NCBI RefSeq assembly: GCF_000013225.1
Contig: NC_007776.1
Location: 391,277 to 455,276 of the forward strand
Reading direction: 5' to 3'
DNA from: Synechococcus sp. JA-2-3B'a(2-13)
GTDB taxonomy: Bacteria; Cyanobacteriota; Cyanobacteriia; Thermostichales; Thermostichaceae
DNA: 64,000 nt
Shown piece after piece: positions 12,876 to 26,189 of the stretch. The translations under genes and the position numbers were made by a program. Every line of letters starts with the position of its first letter. Position 1 is the stretch's first letter. Under the pieces are notes generated by a model that was not told the DNA's origin, did no database searches, and worked only from the letters and a program-made list of their open reading frames with translations.

Positions 12876-14427
12876 CGGCCACCTCCTGCCCGGCCATGCG
12901 CAACCCCAAGGCGGTCACCGTTGTGGTTTGGGTCGGGACTGCCGAGGAAAGCCGACCGCGATAGAGCACCGCCACCCGATCGGCCAAACTCAGCAATTCA
13001 TCCAGGTCTTCGGAAATGAGCAGGATCCCGGCTCCAGCCCGGGCTGCTGCCAGCAGTTGGGCATGCACGTAAGCCACAGCCCCCAGATCCAGTCCCCGCG
13101 TCGGTTGGTGAGCCACAATTACCTGGGGATCCCGACACAGCTCCCGCGAGAGGATCACTTTTTGCATATTTCCGCCGGACAGCAGTTGCACTGGCATCTG
13201 GAGCGCCTGCCGCGGATCCCCACTCTGGAGTCCCCGCACATCGTAGGTCTGTAGCCAGGTGTGGGCCTGCTGATAGATTTGGCGGTGACGCAGGATCCCC
13301 CACCGCGAGAATTCGGGATCCCGATAGCGCTCGATGACCCAGTTTTCCCATAGGCTAAGGGAACCAATCAGCCCAGTTTTGTGGCGGTCTTCTGGGATCC
13401 GGGCCATGCCTTGCCGCACCATCTCAGCAGGAGAGATCAGCCGCAGGACTCGGCCATGCAGATGGAGATGACCTTGGTGGGGCCGGATCACCCCACAGAC
13501 CAGATCTGCCAGAACGGCCTGCCCATTGCCCGCCACCCCGGCAATACCCACGATTTCGTGACGCCGCACCGTCAAAGAAACCTGCTCCAGATGCTGCTGC
13601 CCCACCCGACAGGAGACCTGCTGCAACTCTAAGACCGTCTCCCCCGGAGACAAAGGGGCTTTGACCACCGCCGCCAACCGCTGCCCCACCATCGCTTCCG
13701 CCAGAGCTGTGGGATGGATCTCAGCCGTCTTGCCCGTCATCACCACCCGCCCTGAGCGCAGCACCATCACCCGGTCACTGATGCGCATCACCTCCTGGAG
13801 CTTGTGGGAAATCAGCAGGATCCCCAGTCCGCGACCGGCCATCTGCCGTAGGGTGTGAAAAAACGGCTCAATTTCCGGTGGGGTCAACACCGCCGTAGGC
13901 TCATCCAAAATCAGGATCCGCGCCCCTCGATACAGCACCTTGAGGATCTCCACCCGCTGCCGCTCCCCTAAGGTTAGAGATCCCACCAGAGCATCGGGAT
14001 CCACGGCCAACCCCAATTCCTCAGCCAGCTTTTGGATGCGCCGCCGTCCCTCTCGCCGCCGAGACCATAGGTGCCACAGGGGCTGAGTGCCCAGCAGAAT
14101 GTTGTCCAGCACCGATAGATTATCGGCCAAGACCACATGCTGATGCACCATGCCTATCCCCGCCGCCAGGGCAGCCGCCGGGGATCCCAGCTTGAGGGGC
14201 CGACCAAACACCCACACCTGACCCTGATCGGGAACGTAGTGCCCAAACAGGATATTCATCAGCGTCGTTTTGCCCGCCCCATTTTCCCCCAAGATGGCCA
14301 GAATCTCCCCGGCCCGCAGCTCAAGATCAATCTGGTCGTTGGCCAGCAGAGCACCAAAGCGCTTAGTAATGCCCACCACCTTCAAGGCCAAAGGCGCTTC
14401 AGAGGGTGGACTTGGGTTCGCTGTCAT
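12865..14427 (-). CDS. ABC transporter ATP-binding protein, tandem ATPase (NupO-like)
   Basis: A 520-residue protein with two ABC cassettes in tandem, as in ribose and nucleoside importers. The first has Walker A GENGAGKTT, signature LTLGERQRVEILK and Walker B ILILDEPTA. The second is degenerate, with Walker A replaced by GVAGNGQ, signature LLSGGNMQKV and VIVAHQPTRGLD at Walker B. The frame opens at 14442, but Met at 14427 (MTANPSPPSEAP) is a better start. It overlaps the binding-protein gene by 29 bp. Degeneracy of the second nucleotide site is normal for the family. Confidence 0.92.
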   Translation of the reverse strand: MTANPSPPSEAPLALKVVGITKRFGALLANDQIDLELRAGEILAILGENGAGKTTLMNILFGHYVPDQGQVWVFGRPLKLGSPAAALAAGIGMVHQHVVLADNLSVLDNILLGTQPLWHLWSRRREGRRRIQKLAEELGLAVDPDALVGSLTLGERQRVEILKVLYRGARILILDEPTAVLTPPEIEPFFHTLRQMAGRGLGILLISHKLQEVMRISDRVMVLRSGRVVMTGKTAEIHPTALAEAMVGQRLAAVVKAPLSPGETVLELQQVSCRVGQQHLEQVSLTVRRHEIVGIAGVAGNGQAVLADLVCGVIRPHQGHLHLHGRVLRLISPAEMVRQGMARIPEDRHKTGLIGSLSLWENWVIERYRDPEFSRWGILRHRQIYQQAHTWLQTYDVRGLQSGDPRQALQMPVQLLSGGNMQKVILSRELCRDPQVIVAHQPTRGLDLGAVAYVHAQLLAAARAGAGILLISEDLDELLSLADRVAVLYRGRLSSAVPTQTTTVTALGLRMAGQEVADAC

Positions 14428-15427
14428 CGATGGCCACAACAAAAGACCCCGCCAAAATCTCTGCCTGCCGCTGCATCACCTTAGCTTTCAGTTCAGCCGG
14501 AACCTTGTCGGCAAAGGTTCCCCAGTCGGAGAGGCTGGATCCCCCATATTTCATCATGCTGTAGATCCCGTAGTCCTCTGCCTTAAATTCTCCGGCCTTC
14601 ACCGCGGCAATGGCTCTGTCGATGGTGGGTTCCATGTGCCACAGGGCGCTGACCACCACCGTTTCCGGGTAGTCCGGCTGGGTATCGATCACATTGCCGA
14701 TGGCCAAAACGCCCCTCTCTTTGGCGGCATCAGATACCCCAAACCGCTCTGCATAGAGGATATCCGCGCCGGCATCAATTTGGGCAAAAGCCGCCTCTTT
14801 GGCTTTGGGGGGATCAAACCAACTGCCGATAAAGGTGACCAAAAACTTCACCTCCGGCTGCAGTTCCCTCGCCCCTGCCATAAAAGCATTCATGAGGCGG
14901 TTCACCTCTGGAATGGGATAGCCCCCCACCATGCCGATAATTTTGGAGCGCGTCAGCCCCCCGGCCACCATTCCCGTCAAATAGGAAGGCTCGTGGATGT
15001 AGTTGTCAAACACGGCAAAATTGCTCAGGGCAGGATCCGGCTTGAGGCTGGATCCCATCAAAAAGCTGACCTTGGGATAGTCTTTGGCTACTTCCCGCGC
15101 TTCCCGCTCCACCCCGAAGACCTCACCCACCAGCAGTTGGACGCTGCTCTCGGCATACTGACGCAGCACCCGTGGGTAGTCGGTGTTGGAAACTGACTCC
15201 GACCAGGTATAGTCAATATCCCCCCGCTCCTGGGCGGTCATCAAGGCTTTATGGATCCGGCTCACCCACTGCTGCTCAATGGGAACCGTATAAACCCCGG
15301 CCACCTTCAGCTTGGTTCCTTGAGCCACCGCGGCATCGCGAACCAACCAGCGGCTCCCCATCAGGCCAGCCACAAAAGCCCCAGAACGCAGGCAGAAGTC
15401 CCGCCGGGAGAGTTCTAAACGTGCCAT
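14399..15427 (-). CDS. BMP family substrate-binding protein of the ABC importer
   Basis: A 342-residue periplasmic binding protein of the BMP/PnrA class. The N-terminus carries a twin-arginine signal (SRRDFCLRSGAFVAG), so it is probably exported folded through Tat, and there is no lipobox. The body has FVAGL-type hydrophobic core and the family's GMVGGYPIPEVNRLMNAF and GADILYAERFG. Members bind nucleosides, but related proteins bind other small nitrogenous compounds, so the ligand is not settled. It is the first gene of the operon, directly behind an NtcA-type promoter. A cytosine deaminase gene is divergent from it. Confidence 0.88.
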   Translation of the reverse strand: MARLELSRRDFCLRSGAFVAGLMGSRWLVRDAAVAQGTKLKVAGVYTVPIEQQWVSRIHKALMTAQERGDIDYTWSESVSNTDYPRVLRQYAESSVQLLVGEVFGVEREAREVAKDYPKVSFLMGSSLKPDPALSNFAVFDNYIHEPSYLTGMVAGGLTRSKIIGMVGGYPIPEVNRLMNAFMAGARELQPEVKFLVTFIGSWFDPPKAKEAAFAQIDAGADILYAERFGVSDAAKERGVLAIGNVIDTQPDYPETVVVSALWHMEPTIDRAIAAVKAGEFKAEDYGIYSMMKYGGSSLSDWGTFADKVPAELKAKVMQRQAEILAGSFVVAIDDSEPKSTL

Positions 15428-15474: not shown

Positions 15475-15516
15475 ATCCTAAGGGGGAGATCCCTGAAAAT
15501 ATGTATCCTGAAATAC
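15475..15516 (-). promoter_or_regulatory. NtcA-activated promoter of the BMP importer operon
   Basis: On the minus strand GTA-N8-TAC (15503-15516) is followed by exactly 22 bases and then TAGGAT (15475-15480), which fits TAN3T. GTAN8TAC-N22/23-TAN3T is the established architecture of NtcA-activated cyanobacterial promoters. The predicted start is about 40 nt upstream of the binding-protein ATG at 15427. The box also lies about 310 bp upstream of the divergent cytosine deaminase gene. Confidence 0.72.
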
Positions 15517-15828
15517 AATTTTTTGAGAAGGAGCTTGTTTGTAATGGACAACGAAGTTTTGCTGACGGTTGGAATGGATGTAAGGGCCAAGTCCTCTCAA
15601 ATCAGCTCTCGATAGATTATCCTTCTGACTACTTGGTTGATATCTTGCACAACCGGATGCTGTTGGGGACTACAGCCCTCTTTTATAAAGTGAGCAATAA
15701 CCCAATCAACTGGTTTCCTAAATTCGGGCTTTGAGGTAATTTAAGACATCTTTATCTGATTTGGCCTATCATTCAGTCAACTGTAGTTGCTTCTTTCCAT
15801 CCTAAGTTCAAACAAATAGCCACAACAT
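15517..15828. other. Intergenic region upstream of cytosine deaminase
   Basis: About 310 bp between the NtcA box and codA. A 77-codon frame (15501-15734) has no recognisable features and would overlap the regulatory site, so I do not call it. Probably the codA promoter region. Confidence 0.45.
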
Positions 15829-17103
15829 ATGGATCTCATTTTGCGCCGGGCCAATTTGCCGGATGGCCGCAAGGGAATCGATATCGGTATCCAGGGGGAT
15901 CGCATTGTGGCTCTGGAAAGCAACTTACAAGCCACTGCCCCCCAAGAAATTGATGTCACCAACCGCTTGGTGTCGCCCCCCTTTGTGGATGCCCACTTTC
16001 ACCTGGATGCCACCCTTACCTACGGGATCCCGCGCGTCAACCAATCGGGCACCTTGCTGGAAGGGATCGCCCTCTGGGGAGAGTTGAAGCCACTGCTAAC
16101 TCCGGAGGCGGTCATCGAGCGGGCTCTAACCTACTGCGACTGGGCAGTGGCGCGCGGGATCTTAGCCATCCGCGCCCATGTGGACGTGTGCGATCCCAAC
16201 CTGGTGGCGGTGCGGGCCTTGCTGGAGGTCAAGCAAAAAGTATCCCCCTACCTGGATTTGCAACTGGTGGCCTTTCCCCAAGATGGCTACTACCGCTCGC
16301 CGGGGGCGGTGCAGCTTTTGGAGAAGGCTCTGGATTTGGGGGTGGAGGTGGTGGGTGGGATCCCCCACTTCGAGCGGACGATGGCCGAAGGAGCCGCTTC
16401 AGTGCGGGCTCTGTGCGAGATTGCAGCCGCGCGGGGCCTGCGGGTGGATCTGCACTGCGACGAAACAGACGACCCCCTCTCCCGCCACGTGGAGACCCTG
16501 GCCTACGAGACGCTGCGGCTGGGCCTGCAGGGGCGGGTGGCCGCCTCCCACCTCACCTCGATGCACTCAATGGACAACGCCTACGTGAGCAAACTCATTC
16601 CCCTGATGGCCGAAGCAGAGCTGGGGGTGATCGCCAACCCGCTGGTGAACCTGGTGCTGCAGGGCCGCCACGATACCTATCCCAAGCGGCGGGGGCTGAC
16701 GCGGGTGCCGGAGCTGATGGCCGCCGGGCTGACGGTGGCTTTTGGCCAGGACTGTGTGATGGATCCCTGGTACCCTCTGGGCAGCGGCAACATGCTGGAA
16801 GTGGCCCACATGGCCGTCCACGCTGCCCAGATGACAGGCTATGAGCAGATGCGGCAGTGCTTCTTGGCGGTTACGGAAAACCCGGCCCGCATTCTGGGGT
16901 TAGAAGGCTACGGACTAGAACCCGGCTGCTATGCCGACTTGGTGGTGCTCCAGGCTGCTGATGCCGTCGAAGCTATTCGCCTGAAACCAGCTTGCCTGTA
17001 TGTCTTCCGCCGGGGACGGCTGATCGCCCAAACCCCGCCGGTGGTTGCCCAGCTCCATTTGCCGGGGCGCTCGGCCCAGGTGGACTTCACCCGCCAGCTT
17101 TAA
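15829..17103 (+). CDS. codA: Cytosine deaminase (CodA-like amidohydrolase)
   Basis: Amidohydrolase-superfamily enzyme converting cytosine to uracil and ammonia; relatives act on isoguanine or creatinine. Metal site His56 and His58 (DAHFHLD), the proton-shuttle segment LHCDETDD, SHLTSMHS (metal His) and the catalytic Asp region QDCVMDPWYPLGSG match E. coli CodA closely. Length of 424 matches the family (about 425). Uracil release plus ammonia fits the adjacent nucleoside-type importer and its NtcA promoter, making a nitrogen-scavenging unit (inference). The stop codon shares the palindrome TTAA with the stop of the convergent gene. Confidence 0.88.
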   Translation: MDLILRRANLPDGRKGIDIGIQGDRIVALESNLQATAPQEIDVTNRLVSPPFVDAHFHLDATLTYGIPRVNQSGTLLEGIALWGELKPLLTPEAVIERALTYCDWAVARGILAIRAHVDVCDPNLVAVRALLEVKQKVSPYLDLQLVAFPQDGYYRSPGAVQLLEKALDLGVEVVGGIPHFERTMAEGAASVRALCEIAAARGLRVDLHCDETDDPLSRHVETLAYETLRLGLQGRVAASHLTSMHSMDNAYVSKLIPLMAEAELGVIANPLVNLVLQGRHDTYPKRRGLTRVPELMAAGLTVAFGQDCVMDPWYPLGSGNMLEVAHMAVHAAQMTGYEQMRQCFLAVTENPARILGLEGYGLEPGCYADLVVLQAADAVEAIRLKPACLYVFRRGRLIAQTPPVVAQLHLPGRSAQVDFTRQL

Positions 17104-21453: not shown

Positions 21454-23241
21454 TCAAAACACCCTCAGATGCCGGGGATCCAACTGTAGCCACCAGGGGG
21501 ATCCCCAAGTCTCCACCTCTCGCCAGCGCTCCCGCCACACCTCAGCTTGCAGGTGATAGTCCTGGCGGTGGGCAGGAGGACCGCCCAGCCTAAAGAAGAG
21601 AGTCAGTCGGTGGGGGGTCTCGCTCCACTTCACCAGCCAAGCGGGAAACGTGTTGGGCAGCTTCCCGTCGGGCCTGAAGGTGAGGTGGTGGGCGCGGATG
21701 GCGATGTATTCTCCCGCTGGGGATCCCTGTACCTGCAGCTCACAGCCCCAATCCAAGGCCAGCACCCGTTGAGGGCCCAGGAGCTTGGCCCGCGAGATGT
21801 TTTTGCAACCCGTCAGTTGCGCCACACTAAGGCAGGGGGGAGCCTCAAATAGCTGACGCTTGTCCCCCTGGGCAATGATTCGCCCCTGCTCCATTACAGC
21901 CAGATCCCCGCAGAGGCGGAAGGCTTCCTCAATGTTGTGGGTTACCAAAAGCGTGACTCCCTTGTAGCCCGCTAGGATTTCCCCCATCTCCTGCTCCAGT
22001 TGGCTGCGCAGGTGGGCATCCAAAGCAGAAAAAGGCTCATCCAGCAGCAAGATCTCCGGCTCAGAAGCCAAGGCTCGCGCCAGGGCCACCCGCTGCTGCT
22101 GTCCTCCGGAGAGCTCCGTGGGATAGCGGTTTTCCCAGCCCTTCAGCTTGACCAACCGCAGCTGGGCCTGGATCCGCTCTTGTTTTTCCGCTTCGCTCAA
22201 GCCCGCAGGGATCCCAAAAGCGATGTTCTGGGCGACGGTGAGATGGGGAAACAGAGCGTAGTTCTGGAAGATCACCCCTACCCGTCGCTGAGCGGGGGGC
22301 AGCCGGATCCCCTGTTCGGCGTCAAACAACGCCCGCTCGTTGAGCAAAATGCGCCCACCATCCGGGGTTTCGATCCCGGCAATGCAGCGCAAAAGTAGGC
22401 TTTTGCCGGATCCAGAGGCCCCCAGCAAGCCCAGGGGTCGCCCATCGCAGCTCAGTTGTGCCTGAAGCTCAAACTGGGGCAGCTTCTTGTCAATGTCCAC
22501 CCAGAGGCGGGGGGCCGGAGTTGAGAAATCCAGATCCCTTCTGGTGAGAACCTGTAGAGGACGAGAGGGAGGTCGCTGCCAGGGCCGTCGCTGAAACCAA
22601 AGGTTAACTGCCGTCATCACCCCCAAGGACAACCCCAAGACCAGGGCCGAGCTGATGGCCGCCCCCCGCATATCCCCCGCCTGAACGGCAAAGAAGATGG
22701 CCATGGACAGGGTTTGCGTGCGGCCTGGGATGTTGCCTGCCAGCATCAAGGTGGCGCCAAACTCCCCCAGAGCGCGAGCAAAACTGAGGGTAACCCCCGC
22801 TAGGATCCCCGGCAAGGCCAGTGGGATCAGCACCCGCGTAAAAATCTTGGCCCTACTTGCTCCCAGGGTGCGGGCTGCCGCCACCAGCGTCGGGTCGATC
22901 TGCTGGAAAGCTCCCAGGGCCGTGCGGTACATCAGGGGCAGGGCCACCACCGCTGCCGTGATCACCCCGGCATACCAGGTGAAGATGACCGACAAGTTCA
23001 GCGAGGCCAAAAGTTGTCCCAGAAGGGTTCGCCGGCCAAACAGCAGCAGCAACAGGAAGCCCACCATGGTGGGCGGCAACACCAGCGGCGCCAACAAGAG
23101 GGCCTCGATGAGAGAGCGCCAGCGACCTCGGTAGTGCAACATCCCATAAGCTGCCAGCGTCCCCACCCCAAAGGTGATGCCCGTGGCCAAGCCGGCAATC
23201 CGTAGGGAGATCCAAAGCGGGGATAGGTCGTAGTCGCTCAT
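21454..23241 (-). CDS. modBC: Molybdate ABC transporter, permease-ATPase fusion (ModBC)
   Basis: A 595-residue single chain combining both importer functions. Residues 1-220 form the ModB permease with about five hydrophobic segments and the ABC-contact loop [23 protein letters not shown]. Residues about 240-460 form the ModC ATPase with Walker A GASGSGKS, signature [15 protein letters not shown] and Walker [15 protein letters not shown]-terminal tail of about 130 residues resembles a regulatory TOBE/Mop-like region. Fused modBC genes are known in diazotrophic cyanobacteria. It follows modA on the same strand and supplies molybdenum for the adjacent nitrogenase genes and nitrate reductase. 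Confidence 0.92.
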
Positions 23242-23278: not shown

Positions 23279-24046
23279 TCACAGGCGGATAAAGCCGTAC
23301 TTCACAAACACCTCTGCCGCTTCCCCTGAGGTCAAAAACTCCAAGTAAGACCGTCCGGCGGGAGTATCGCGCACCAATGCCACCGGGTAGATAATTGGCG
23401 TAATGGGATCCGCCGTAGCCACTACTCGCACCCGATTTGAAAGCTGAGCATCCGAGGTAAACAGGATCCCGGCGTCGGCATTGCCCTGCTCCACCGCCGT
23501 CAAAATTTCCCGCACCGTGCTGGCAAACACCATCTTGGGCCGCAGCGTCTCAAACACCCCCGCCTCGGTGAGAATTTCCTGGGCATAGCGTCCGGCGGGC
23601 ATGGCCTGCAGATCCCCAATGGACAGAACCCGGATCTCTTCCGCCACCAAGTCGGCAAAATCCTGAACCTTGGTTCTGGCATTGGCAGGCACAATTAAAG
23701 CCATGCGATTGCTGAGAAGATCTCGCCGGGATCCCTCCACCAGCAGGTTCTGCTTGGCAAGGGCGTCCATAAAAGAGGCGGCTGCGAAAAATACCACGTC
23801 CAAAGGCGCCCCCTGCTCCACCTGTTGCTGGAGAGAGCCGGAATTGGCGAAGTTGTACTCAACCTTGATGTCGGGATAGCGGGCGGTGAACAACCGGTCG
23901 ATTTCCGTTAAAGCCGGTTGCAAGCTCACCGCAGCCCCCACCAAAATGGGCTGAGATTGTGCCAAGCCGGGAGCCGACCCCCACCTCAAAGCCAGGGCGG
24001 CCAGGATCCCCAGGAATAACATTGCAGTTCTTCGTTTCATAGCCAT
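23279..24046 (-). CDS. modA: Molybdate-binding protein ModA
   Basis: Periplasmic molybdate/tungstate-binding protein. Met 24046 begins a signal peptide ([20 protein letters not shown] ending near GLAQS). The mature protein has [45 protein letters not shown] and the C-terminal [13 protein letters not shown] typical of ModA. 255 residues, close to the usual length. It lies 38 bp upstream of modBC. A TGTA-N8-TACA palindrome is about 90 bp upstream of the start. An earlier in-frame start at 24091 would not give a usable signal peptide. Confidence 0.93.
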
Positions 24047-24130
24047 TTTTCTTTGACCCGTGACAACTCTCAGAACAGGAAAATCCGCCAATGGTTCGGT
24101 GCTTTTGACTGTCGGAATTGGGTTGTAATT

Positions 24131-24146
24131 TGTATCTGTAGATACA
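24131..24146. promoter_or_regulatory. 16-bp perfect palindrome TGTATCTGTAGATACA between modA and mop
   Basis: Arms TGTATCT/AGATACA with a GT spacer. The string contains TGTA-N8-TACA, the full-length NtcA consensus, so NtcA is one candidate. No TAN3T box occurs at 22 bases on either strand, so repression, a different CRP-family protein or a Mo-responsive regulator are alternatives. It sits in the shared upstream region of the divergent modA and mop genes. Confidence 0.55.
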
Positions 24147-24298
24147 CACCTAGACTATCGGCAGCCATTCCTCCCCAGAGGCAACGATAAGCATCTGATA
24201 GTATTGAAACCAATGTTGAATGGCCATCTGCCGAGATCCCTTCTTGTTCAGTTTGGTCAACACCCCTGTTGCTTTAAGTGTTCAACAAAGGAGAAGTC

Positions 24299-24508
24299 AT
24301 GCAAATCAGCACTCGCAACTTTTTTAAAGGAACTGTAAAAAGCTTCCAGGTGGGCATGGTCAATGCCGAAATTGTTCTGGAAGTTGCACCAGGCATAGAA
24401 ATAACAGCCATTATTTCTAAGCACTCTGCCGAACGGTTGGGCATAGCAGTTGGAAAAGAAGCGTATGCTGCCATTAAAGCCTCAGATGTGGTCATCGCCG
24501 TGGATTAG
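24299..24508 (+). CDS. Mop domain molybdenum-pterin/molybdate-binding protein (molbindin)
   Basis: A 69-residue protein made of a single Mop (TOBE-like) domain: MQISTRNFFKGTVKSFQVGM, then IVLEVAPGIEITAIISKHSAERLGI and a closing KASDVVIAVD strand. Molbindins store or buffer molybdate as oligomers in the cytosol. ATG 24299 follows a clear AAAGGAG site; the in-frame GTG at 24278 lies before that site. Divergent from modA-modBC and next to the nif genes, consistent with a role in Mo homeostasis for nitrogenase. Confidence 0.93.
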   Translation: MQISTRNFFKGTVKSFQVGMVNAEIVLEVAPGIEITAIISKHSAERLGIAVGKEAYAAIKASDVVIAVD

Positions 24509-24536
24509 TGGTGGATTAGCAAATTGAGTGACTGGC

Positions 24537-26189
24537 CTAGACTTGCTGTTGCCTGGGATCCAAATACAGGGCTTTGATAAGGCGCTGGCGATCGTTTAGG
24601 CTGATCTGAAGCCGCCCATTCTCTACATCCCGCACCCAGCTCTGGCTGCGCCCCAGCCTCTGGGCCAATTCCCGCTGGCTGATTCCCTTTTGCCGGCGTG
24701 CCGCCGAGATATCCGCTCCACGCAAAGCTTTGCTTGAGGGGAAGTCTTTTGGGTTTTCGGGAGGGCCAGGGAGATCCGAGTCTGTTGCAACAGGCGCAGA
24801 CTTTGCCCTACGCCGCTGCCGGGATCCCGATTCTCGGGTCGGGGATCTGGCTTCTTGAACTGCTTGACGATGCCAGTCGGAGGGCAGATGAAATCGTTGA
24901 ATGCGAGCCTGCATCAAGAGTCCCCACTTGCCCCGCGGCCCGGCAGCGGTCAGCAGGCCGCCATTATTGGCATCTTCAATCCAAAAGTTCAATGCCTCGT
25001 CCGCATCCTCGGGCACAGCTTCCAGGCGAGCCCACAGGGGTTGAATGGAAGAAGGATAGGTGAGGGGATCGAACTCCGGCTTGAGGCCGTAGTGGTTGAG
25101 AACCTCCAGATCGCTTTCAAAGGTGCGCACCAGCCGTTTGCGTTCTTGGAGATTGAGATAAGCTTCCTGCAGTCGCTCTTCCCCGTAGGCCACTCGCATC
25201 AGGGTGGGCACCGTCAGACGCTGTTGCCGCCCCATCCTCACTTTGAACAACAGCCACAGCAGCAGGCGCATGGCTCCTTCATGGTGTTGCCAATGGCTCA
25301 TCACGGCCTGCAGCAGGGATAGGGGCAGGCTGCTGTACTGATAAAAGGCTTGCCCCTGGCGGCACCCTTGTCGATTGAGAAAGTACCGTGTCCATTCGCC
25401 GGGCTGAATCGCCCAAGTCAGGCCCACCAGATGGTTGCAGCCCTGCTCATCTTTTTGAAAGTGGCGATGCATCTTGAGCAGCCTCCACAGAGGGCCAGCC
25501 GGTACCGAAAACCCCTTCACCCGCCCCTGATCCGGCCAATCGATGGAGACTTGAATCCGACAGAGCTGCTCTATCCAGGTCATGAACAGGTGGAGACGGG
25601 TCATCTTGCTCAGATCTTTACGTTTATCCCAGCCCAAATAGGACTCCAATTGTGAGTCGGTGAAAACAAAGGATTCCTTCCAGGGGCTATCCAACCCGGC
25701 GGCATAGGCAGCAAAAATAAGATGCAAACAGGCAGTTCGCACATCGATCGGAGCACTTTGTGGGATCCCGTCCAAACATAGAGTTAGGGTCAGAGATCCC
25801 TGGTTGTGGCCAACAGATTTCTGATAGCAAACCTGGTTATCTCCCTGCTTTTGCAGATTGAGAGATTGAAATTGAGATAGGAAATTGCAAGCTTCCCAGA
25901 CCACAATTGACGAAGCAAAAGCCTGGCTATGGCCGTTCAAAAATAGAGGTGGACTGCTGCGAATGCGGGCCGTGACCGTGCGGTTGCGCCCCTTCATGGC
26001 TTCATAAGGCTGCGGGGCAGAACCGGGACACAGGCTAACGCACTGAGGTTCTGGGAAGAAACCTTCGCAGTCATTGCACAACAGAGGATTAATCCAGTAT
26101 TCCCCATCCTGGACAACAATAGCTTTTGTAGGACAGCTATCTACGCAAGCGTTGCAACCGATACAATTCCCTGAGATTTGATAAGCCAT
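24537..26189 (-). CDS. cnfR: CnfR/PatB-type nif transcriptional activator
   Basis: A 550-residue regulator with an N-terminal double ferredoxin module: CIGCNACVDSCP and then C-x2-C...C-x3-CP (CNDC, CVSLCP). The C-terminal helix-turn-helix of the XRE type spans about 505-545 (ISQRELAQRLGRSQSWVRDVENGRLQ). This arrangement is that of CnfR (PatB in heterocystous species), which activates nif genes under low oxygen, presumably through oxygen-labile clusters. The long middle region (about 70-480) has no motif I recognise; a basic disordered linker precedes the HTH. It is the distal gene of the leftward nif block, with its own 340-bp upstream region containing a perfect 19-bp palindrome. Confidence 0.85.
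   Translation of the reverse strand: MAYQISGNCIGCNACVDSCPTKAIVVQDGEYWINPLLCNDCEGFFPEPQCVSLCPGSAPQPYEAMKGRNRTVTARIRSSPPLFLNGHSQAFASSIVVWEACNFLSQFQSLNLQKQGDNQVCYQKSVGHNQGSLTLTLCLDGIPQSAPIDVRTACLHLIFAAYAAGLDSPWKESFVFTDSQLESYLGWDKRKDLSKMTRLHLFMTWIEQLCRIQVSIDWPDQGRVKGFSVPAGPLWRLLKMHRHFQKDEQGCNHLVGLTWAIQPGEWTRYFLNRQGCRQGQAFYQYSSLPLSLLQAVMSHWQHHEGAMRLLLWLLFKVRMGRQQRLTVPTLMRVAYGEERLQEAYLNLQERKRLVRTFESDLEVLNHYGLKPEFDPLTYPSSIQPLWARLEAVPEDADEALNFWIEDANNGGLLTAAGPRGKWGLLMQARIQRFHLPSDWHRQAVQEARSPTRESGSRQRRRAKSAPVATDSDLPGPPENPKDFPSSKALRGADISAARRQKGISQRELAQRLGRSQSWVRDVENGRLQISLNDRQRLIKALYLDPRQQQV

Follow-up and report, generated by a model that had tools for sequence, protein, structure and literature searches.

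A candidate operator between the divergent modA and mop genes of Synechococcus sp. JA-2-3B'a(2-13), and a predicted RHH-Mop regulator in other cyanobacteria

The modA-mop gap and its dyad

The window, a stretch of 64,000 nucleotides, belongs to a genome of 3,046,682 bp (G000). A modA gene for a molybdate-binding protein was found on its minus strand at 23279..24040 (PF13531, E 1.2e-51; TIGR01256, E 1.4e-47, over the cut-off), with an in-frame ATG at 24046 as a possible alternative start, together with a fused modB-modC gene at 21454..23241 on the same strand (PF00528 and PF00005; TIGR02141 over the cut-off). On the plus strand, mop (24299..24508) encodes a stand-alone molybdate-binding protein of 69 aa (PF03459, E 1.7e-14; TIGR00638, E 4.9e-22, over the cut-off). 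The ModC part of the fused gene gave no match to the TOBE profile PF03459 at E 0.001, and the whole genome holds two TOBE matches only, mop itself and one within a frame of 350 aa (L006). Convergent with mop lies a CnfR/PatB-like gene (24537..26189, minus strand) with N-terminal 4Fe-4S ferredoxin (Fer4) domains and a C-terminal HTH (PF13560, E 1.7e-9), a ferredoxin-HTH layout matched by the CnfR architecture given in the available excerpt of PMC8510180.

The gap between the divergent modA (minus) and mop (plus) genes contains the dyad TGTATCTGTAGATACA at exactly 24131..24146. It reads TGTATCT-GT-AGATACA, and its GTA-N8-TAC core occupies 24132-24145. A sequence-only reading of this DNA had described a perfect 16-bp palindrome that contained the NtcA consensus and lay between divergent modA and mop; the place and the identity of both genes were confirmed (TIGR01256, TIGR00638) and the GTA-N8-TAC consensus is present, but the palindrome is not exact, as pairing between its arms TGTATCT/AGATACA covers 7 bp, with the central GT unpaired. 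Candidate -10 elements of both genes adjoin the dyad: by eye, TAGACT (24151..24156, plus strand) for mop, 15 nt after TTGTAT (24130-24135), and TAGTCT (24152-24157, minus strand) for modA. The spacer from TTGTAT to TAGACT measures 15, 16 and 17 nt in three genomes (G000 and its two nearest relatives, G001 and G004), all of which also keep an alternative mop promoter candidate, TGATAGTAT (24196-24204). A promoter scan of 24000-24600 found no promoter, an Rfam search of 23900-24600 found no known RNA up to E 1, and a plasmid search using the modA-mop gap as query gave no match.

The pattern TGTA-N8-TACA occurred twice in the window, against a mean of 0.12 in dinucleotide shuffles. Over the whole of G000 it was found 25 times, about once per 122 kb, and the reversed control pattern was also found 25 times; the corresponding counts were 18 and 17 in G001, and 28 and 28 in G004. 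Since the genome count equals that of the reversed control, dinucleotide shuffles set too low a bar, and the pattern in itself is no evidence. The sequence-only reading had put the random expectation at about one per 65 kb. Dyads with 7-bp arms and a centre of 0-4 nt numbered 24 in the window, nested ones possibly being counted more than once, and eight of them have a 2-nt centre; the expectation for such dyads is about 0.09 per 250 bp. The dyad sequence by itself is weak evidence, and the weight is borne by its position and its conservation.

A search with Mop gave matches in 39 of 96 genomes, the window's own included. Both nearest genomes retain the dyad between modA and mop, as TGTATCTTTAAGATACA in G001 and as TGTATCTTTAGATACA in G004. 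At its centre it has GT, TT or, in G001, one base more, so that TGTA and TACA stand N9 apart in G001 and N8 apart in G000 and G004, while the arms stay matched. The exact form TGTATC-N3..5-GATACA was found once in each of these three genomes, always in the modA-mop gap; among five other searched genomes it had two copies each in G003 and G006 and none in G002, G005 and G007, and no mod genes were seen by eye near the G003 and G006 copies in the stretches inspected. All 14 arm positions are invariant across the three genomes, whereas of the remaining 237 columns of the gap 195 are. This conservation is weak proof, because these genomes are closely related (83-95% identity in this region) and full invariance was also seen outside the dyad, in 14 of 204 column sets with its geometry. 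At the level of the alignment, arm invariance lends the dyad modest support.

When two mismatches were allowed, matches to the dyad numbered 7 in G000, 3 in G001 and 5 in G004 (2, 3 and 1, respectively, for the reversed control), counts that did not support a dyad regulon, although a small one may exist. Two of the six further places in G000 have identical counterparts in G001, among them the NtcA-type site at 15502 described below. Besides the modA-mop gap, one pair of such sites precedes BMP-like genes that are orthologs of each other (L090 in G000 and L091 in G004): 21 nt separate the end of TGTATTCTCAGATACA (L090, 1501-1516) from the ATG of a second BMP-like gene of G000, and a near-identical site (L091, 1501-1516) stands before its G004 ortholog. 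Like the modA-mop site, the L090 site has no TAN3T at the canonical distance. Among 20 upstream regions of RHH-less mop genes, TGTA-N7..9-TACA or GTATC-N1..6-GATAC gave one match only (L027). In SM2_3_2 (L128), whose ModA is 72% identical, the 1.5 kb upstream of modA contained no mop by eye and neither dyad pattern in a scan.

NtcA-type layouts and the nitrogen-molybdenum link

All 25 TGTA-N8-TACA places of G000 were examined in context. A TAN3T element at 22-23 nt was found at six of them, four of which face a likely target and two (L094 and L100) no clear one. NtcA-type promoters were read before glnA (TAGGAT at 22 nt; TIGR00653, E 1.7e-200), before a LysR-type gene (TAGGAT at 22 nt; NtcB-like by our own reading only) and before ntcA (TACTTT at 23 nt; TIGR03697, E 1e-117). 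Within the window, a site of this type at 15502..15517 (minus strand) belongs to a BMP-family transporter gene, with TAGGAT (15475-15480) 22 nt past the TAC. That gene (14399-15427, minus strand) is divergent from a cytosine deaminase gene at 15829-17103; the same TAGGAT spacing is found in G001, and the site is missing among the 28 TGTA-N8-TACA places of G004. As these promoters were picked partly by their spacing, they illustrate the layout and are no proof that NtcA acts only in this way. In the excerpt available of PMC3898017, glnA and ntcB are given as canonical NtcA promoters and ntcA as a non-canonical one, while rbcL and gor are repressed by NtcA through boxes downstream of the -35 element.

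No TAN3T was found at 19-25 nt from the box of the dyad on either side in G000 or G004, and none was seen in a reading by eye of the N9 dyad of G001. The dyad is therefore not a class II NtcA-activated promoter. This agrees with the sequence-only reading, which had noted that the element was absent at the canonical distance and had left repression or another regulator as options, a choice we judge sound. Judged from the layout, class II NtcA activation at the dyad is not supported; another role for NtcA is possible.

Evidence on a link between nitrogen and molybdenum was obtained from 50 distinct 400-bp regions upstream of modA or mop (60 regions, reduced to 55 by dropping repeats of the same genome place and to 50 by dropping near-identical ones), in which the window's clade is represented by G001. 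GTA-N8-TAC was found 15 times in these regions, against 1-6 times for 11 permutations of the half-sites and 1-10 times for other spacings (N9 accounting for the 10). Part of that count stems from half-sites of the RHH-Mop operator described below, and for this reason it is not leaned on. The element following the box was more specific: TAN3T stands at 22 nt in four regions and at 21 or 23 nt in none, whereas shuffles gave a mean of 0.4 (21-23 nt) and reached four in 1 of 200. Controls with other half-sites gave 0-1, and those with other spacings 0-2.

The four canonical layouts precede modA in G005, of the window's genus, and in G069, and mop in G023 and G054. The NtcA-type box of the G005 modA overlaps RHH-Mop half-sites. 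In the related genomes G023 and G054, the mop gene is preceded by GTAAGCCATGATAC (L018, 1429-1442, and L020, 1434-1447, in mop orientation), with TAGGGT 22 nt further on. Box and -10 are identical in the two, and the spacer between them has diverged, a pattern that we predict to be a footprint of NtcA control. In addition, mop of Leptolyngbya boryana is reported, in the available excerpt of PMC5943405, to be expressed under nitrogen deficiency without CnfR. Based on this report and on the four regions of relatives, the wider nitrogen-molybdenum link proposed earlier is plausible.

ModE, the likely RHH-Mop fusion and its apparent absence from G000, G001 and G004

The ModE profile TIGR00637 had no match in G000 at E 0.001, and ModE was set aside as a candidate regulator. 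None of 194 genomes of the class had a match over the cut-off of this profile; weaker matches were found in 121, mostly in frames of 280-430 aa, which we read as LysR proteins. With only 2 of 14 control genomes passing it, this cut-off is strict, and a divergent ModE may have escaped detection.

Various cyanobacteria have an extended mop frame, in which an N-terminal stretch, MPRK.QGWITFQ...R.KT..LRE..R, comes ahead of Mop. Across 4 proteins, the best Pfam RHH_1 match to this stretch had E 0.008 and fell short of the profile's cut-off. In an AlphaFold model of the longer protein (mean pLDDT 70.1, pTM 0.40), two N-terminal helices (residues 15-28 and 32-47) precede a Mop fold, and there is no strand at residues 6-12; the Mop fold matches MopII, ModG and the DiMop domain of ModE, and the leading PDB matches were Mop-type proteins. 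Ribbon-helix-helix (RHH) is the likely label for the modelled N-terminal domain. A TOBE or Mop domain was detected in all four RHH-Mop proteins in each of two scans of four. The RHH profile matched 140 of 388 genomes of the class, many of them in short frames, a count of matches to this profile alone.

Thirty RHH-Mop loci were fetched as the best-scoring ones, not as a random sample, and 28 distinct upstream regions were counted. All 30 encode the fusion by eye, and 26 were aligned. TACCAA-N5-TTGGTA was found with up to one mismatch within 100 bp upstream in 17 of the 28 regions, 13 times exactly, against a rate of 0.0007 in shuffles, and these sites begin 22-33 nt before the start; nine regions had none within 100 bp even at two mismatches. 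With modA divergent from RHH-Mop in 17 of the 30 loci, an operator shared within the gap is common elsewhere. At several RHH-Mop loci (among L044, L053-L081, L032, L033, L035 and L036), extra direct TACCAAC half-sites were observed upstream.

RHH-Mop is predicted to be a molybdate-responsive regulator that likely replaces ModE in cyanobacteria. For A. variabilis, PMC4284476 mentions a homolog of modE located upstream of modA, which is possibly an RHH-Mop protein. A literature search combining ribbon-helix-helix and molybdate with TOBE or cyanobacteria retrieved no relevant publication, and no mention of regulation or repression was found in passages of PMC3627308.

The fusion appears to be missing from the window's genome and its two nearest relatives. 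No match to the RHH profile was obtained in the whole genomes of G000, G001 and G004 up to E 0.1, the open frame of the window's mop starts only 7 codons before its ATG, and TACCAA-N5-TTGGTA with up to two mismatches occurs in the window only at 14352 and 40055, and not in the modA-mop gap. In G005, by comparison, the RHH-Mop frame is intact, and TACCAA-N5-TTGGTA stands without mismatch 104 nt upstream of it (L044). The RHH frame is interrupted in G003 (L011) and G006 (L019), which could reflect real decay or assembly error; the operator is changed in G003, by eye, and intact in G006. In L011, around 1200-1235 in mop orientation, two of the three TTGGTA-type half-sites of G005 read TTGGCA and the third is altered otherwise, and such alterations beside an interrupted frame could mean decay or a shifted specificity. 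A degenerate RHH remnant sought in the window's gap was not significant, as 47 of 500 shuffles scored as high. As no remnant is detectable, replacement is argued from distribution only.

Interpretation of the dyad

The reading to which we incline, while granting it somewhat less than an even chance, is that the dyad is the operator of a dimeric regulator other than NtcA or CnfR. Such a transcription factor would bind the dyad and act on the divergent modA and mop promoters, and steric block of both promoters would be its most likely mode of action, since the candidate -10 elements of both genes adjoin the dyad. What we infer is binding of the dyad by a protein, repression as its effect, and molybdate or nitrogen as the signal; no binding protein was found, and searches of G000 with the ModE and RHH profiles were negative.

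The nearest rival is that NtcA itself binds the dyad, not as a class II activator at -41.5 but outside the canonical position or in a repressing role, and so ties the uptake and storage of molybdate to nitrogen status. We think this somewhat less probable than the first reading. The full TGTA-N8-TACA is present in G000 and G004, the ntcA gene is present in G000, relatives have GTA-N8-TAC and the canonical TAN3T upstream of modA or mop, the expression of L. boryana mop without CnfR would fit, and boxes downstream of -35 are known from NtcA-repressed genes. It is weakened by the missing TAN3T in G000 and G004 and, by eye, in G001, by the N9 spacing of G001, by the lack of genome-wide enrichment of the pattern, and by the composition of the counts in relatives, where N9 is raised as well, some boxes (including that of G005) overlap RHH-Mop half-sites, and two of the four canonical layouts come from the related G023 and G054. 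That the dyad serves the neighbouring CnfR-like activator is most improbable: the cnfR-like gene does come next after mop, but in A. variabilis the elements presumed to serve CnfR are placed 300-600 bp ahead of the nifB1 and nifB2 starts (PMC8510180), such elements would be expected at other nif promoters while the exact dyad occurs once in G000, and mop of L. boryana needs no CnfR for its expression (PMC5943405).

A functionless chance occurrence is in our view less probable than NtcA, but much less remote than CnfR. It would suit the equality of the 25 genomic places with the reversed control, the abundance of 7-bp-arm dyads in the window, and the closeness of the relatives, which limits the power of conservation; it would sit less easily with the low expectation of such dyads in 250 bp, with arms that remained matched in three genomes despite a central indel, with the lack of a second exact copy in any of the three, and with the operator found at the same place in many relatives. 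On balance, the site is a modest but reasonable candidate for an operator.

As an operator of another dimeric regulator, the dyad would apparently have taken the place of the circuit formed by RHH-Mop and TACCAA-N5-TTGGTA in this lineage. Put tentatively, and with rather less than even confidence, cyanobacteria would lack ModE, and RHH-Mop would repress itself and the divergent modA through TACCAA-N5-TTGGTA; the window's lineage would have lost the RHH domain, leaving Mop as plain storage, the gap would have been rewired to the new dyad, and uptake would be uncoupled from direct sensing of molybdate. The comparison across genomes suggests RHH-Mop as the cyanobacterial stand-in for ModE, lost in this lineage, and this comparison, prompted by the site, is worth more than the site itself. 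Nitrogenase needs molybdenum, and little is known of how molybdate supply is matched to nitrogen fixation in cyanobacteria. RHH-Mop with its sharp operator, as well as the NtcA-type modA and mop promoters of relatives, can be tested directly in laboratory strains.

Four known or predicted systems may be set beside the site. Class II NtcA promoters likewise have GTA-N8-TAC, and the dyad has the outer T/A in two of three genomes and lies between genes at a molybdenum-supply locus; they differ in having TAN3T at 22 nt, which the dyad lacks, and the dyad has in addition N9 in G001 and genes on both sides. The NtcA-repressed promoters of rbcL and gor, as given in the excerpt of PMC3898017, resemble the dyad in that the box lies close to a possible -35 or past it, although here the promoter is conjectural and one would not expect NtcA to repress uptake and storage in an organism that fixes nitrogen.

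Proteobacterial ModE operators are also dyads in a mod promoter region, by the gene of a molybdate-binding protein, but the arms of the ModE box are of the TATAT type, different from those of the dyad, and ModE was not found in G000 by its profile. The predicted RHH-Mop circuit shares with the window's site the divergent modA-mop gap and an operator in the form of a dyad; it differs in the arms and spacing of that operator, and in its RHH domain, which was not found in G000.
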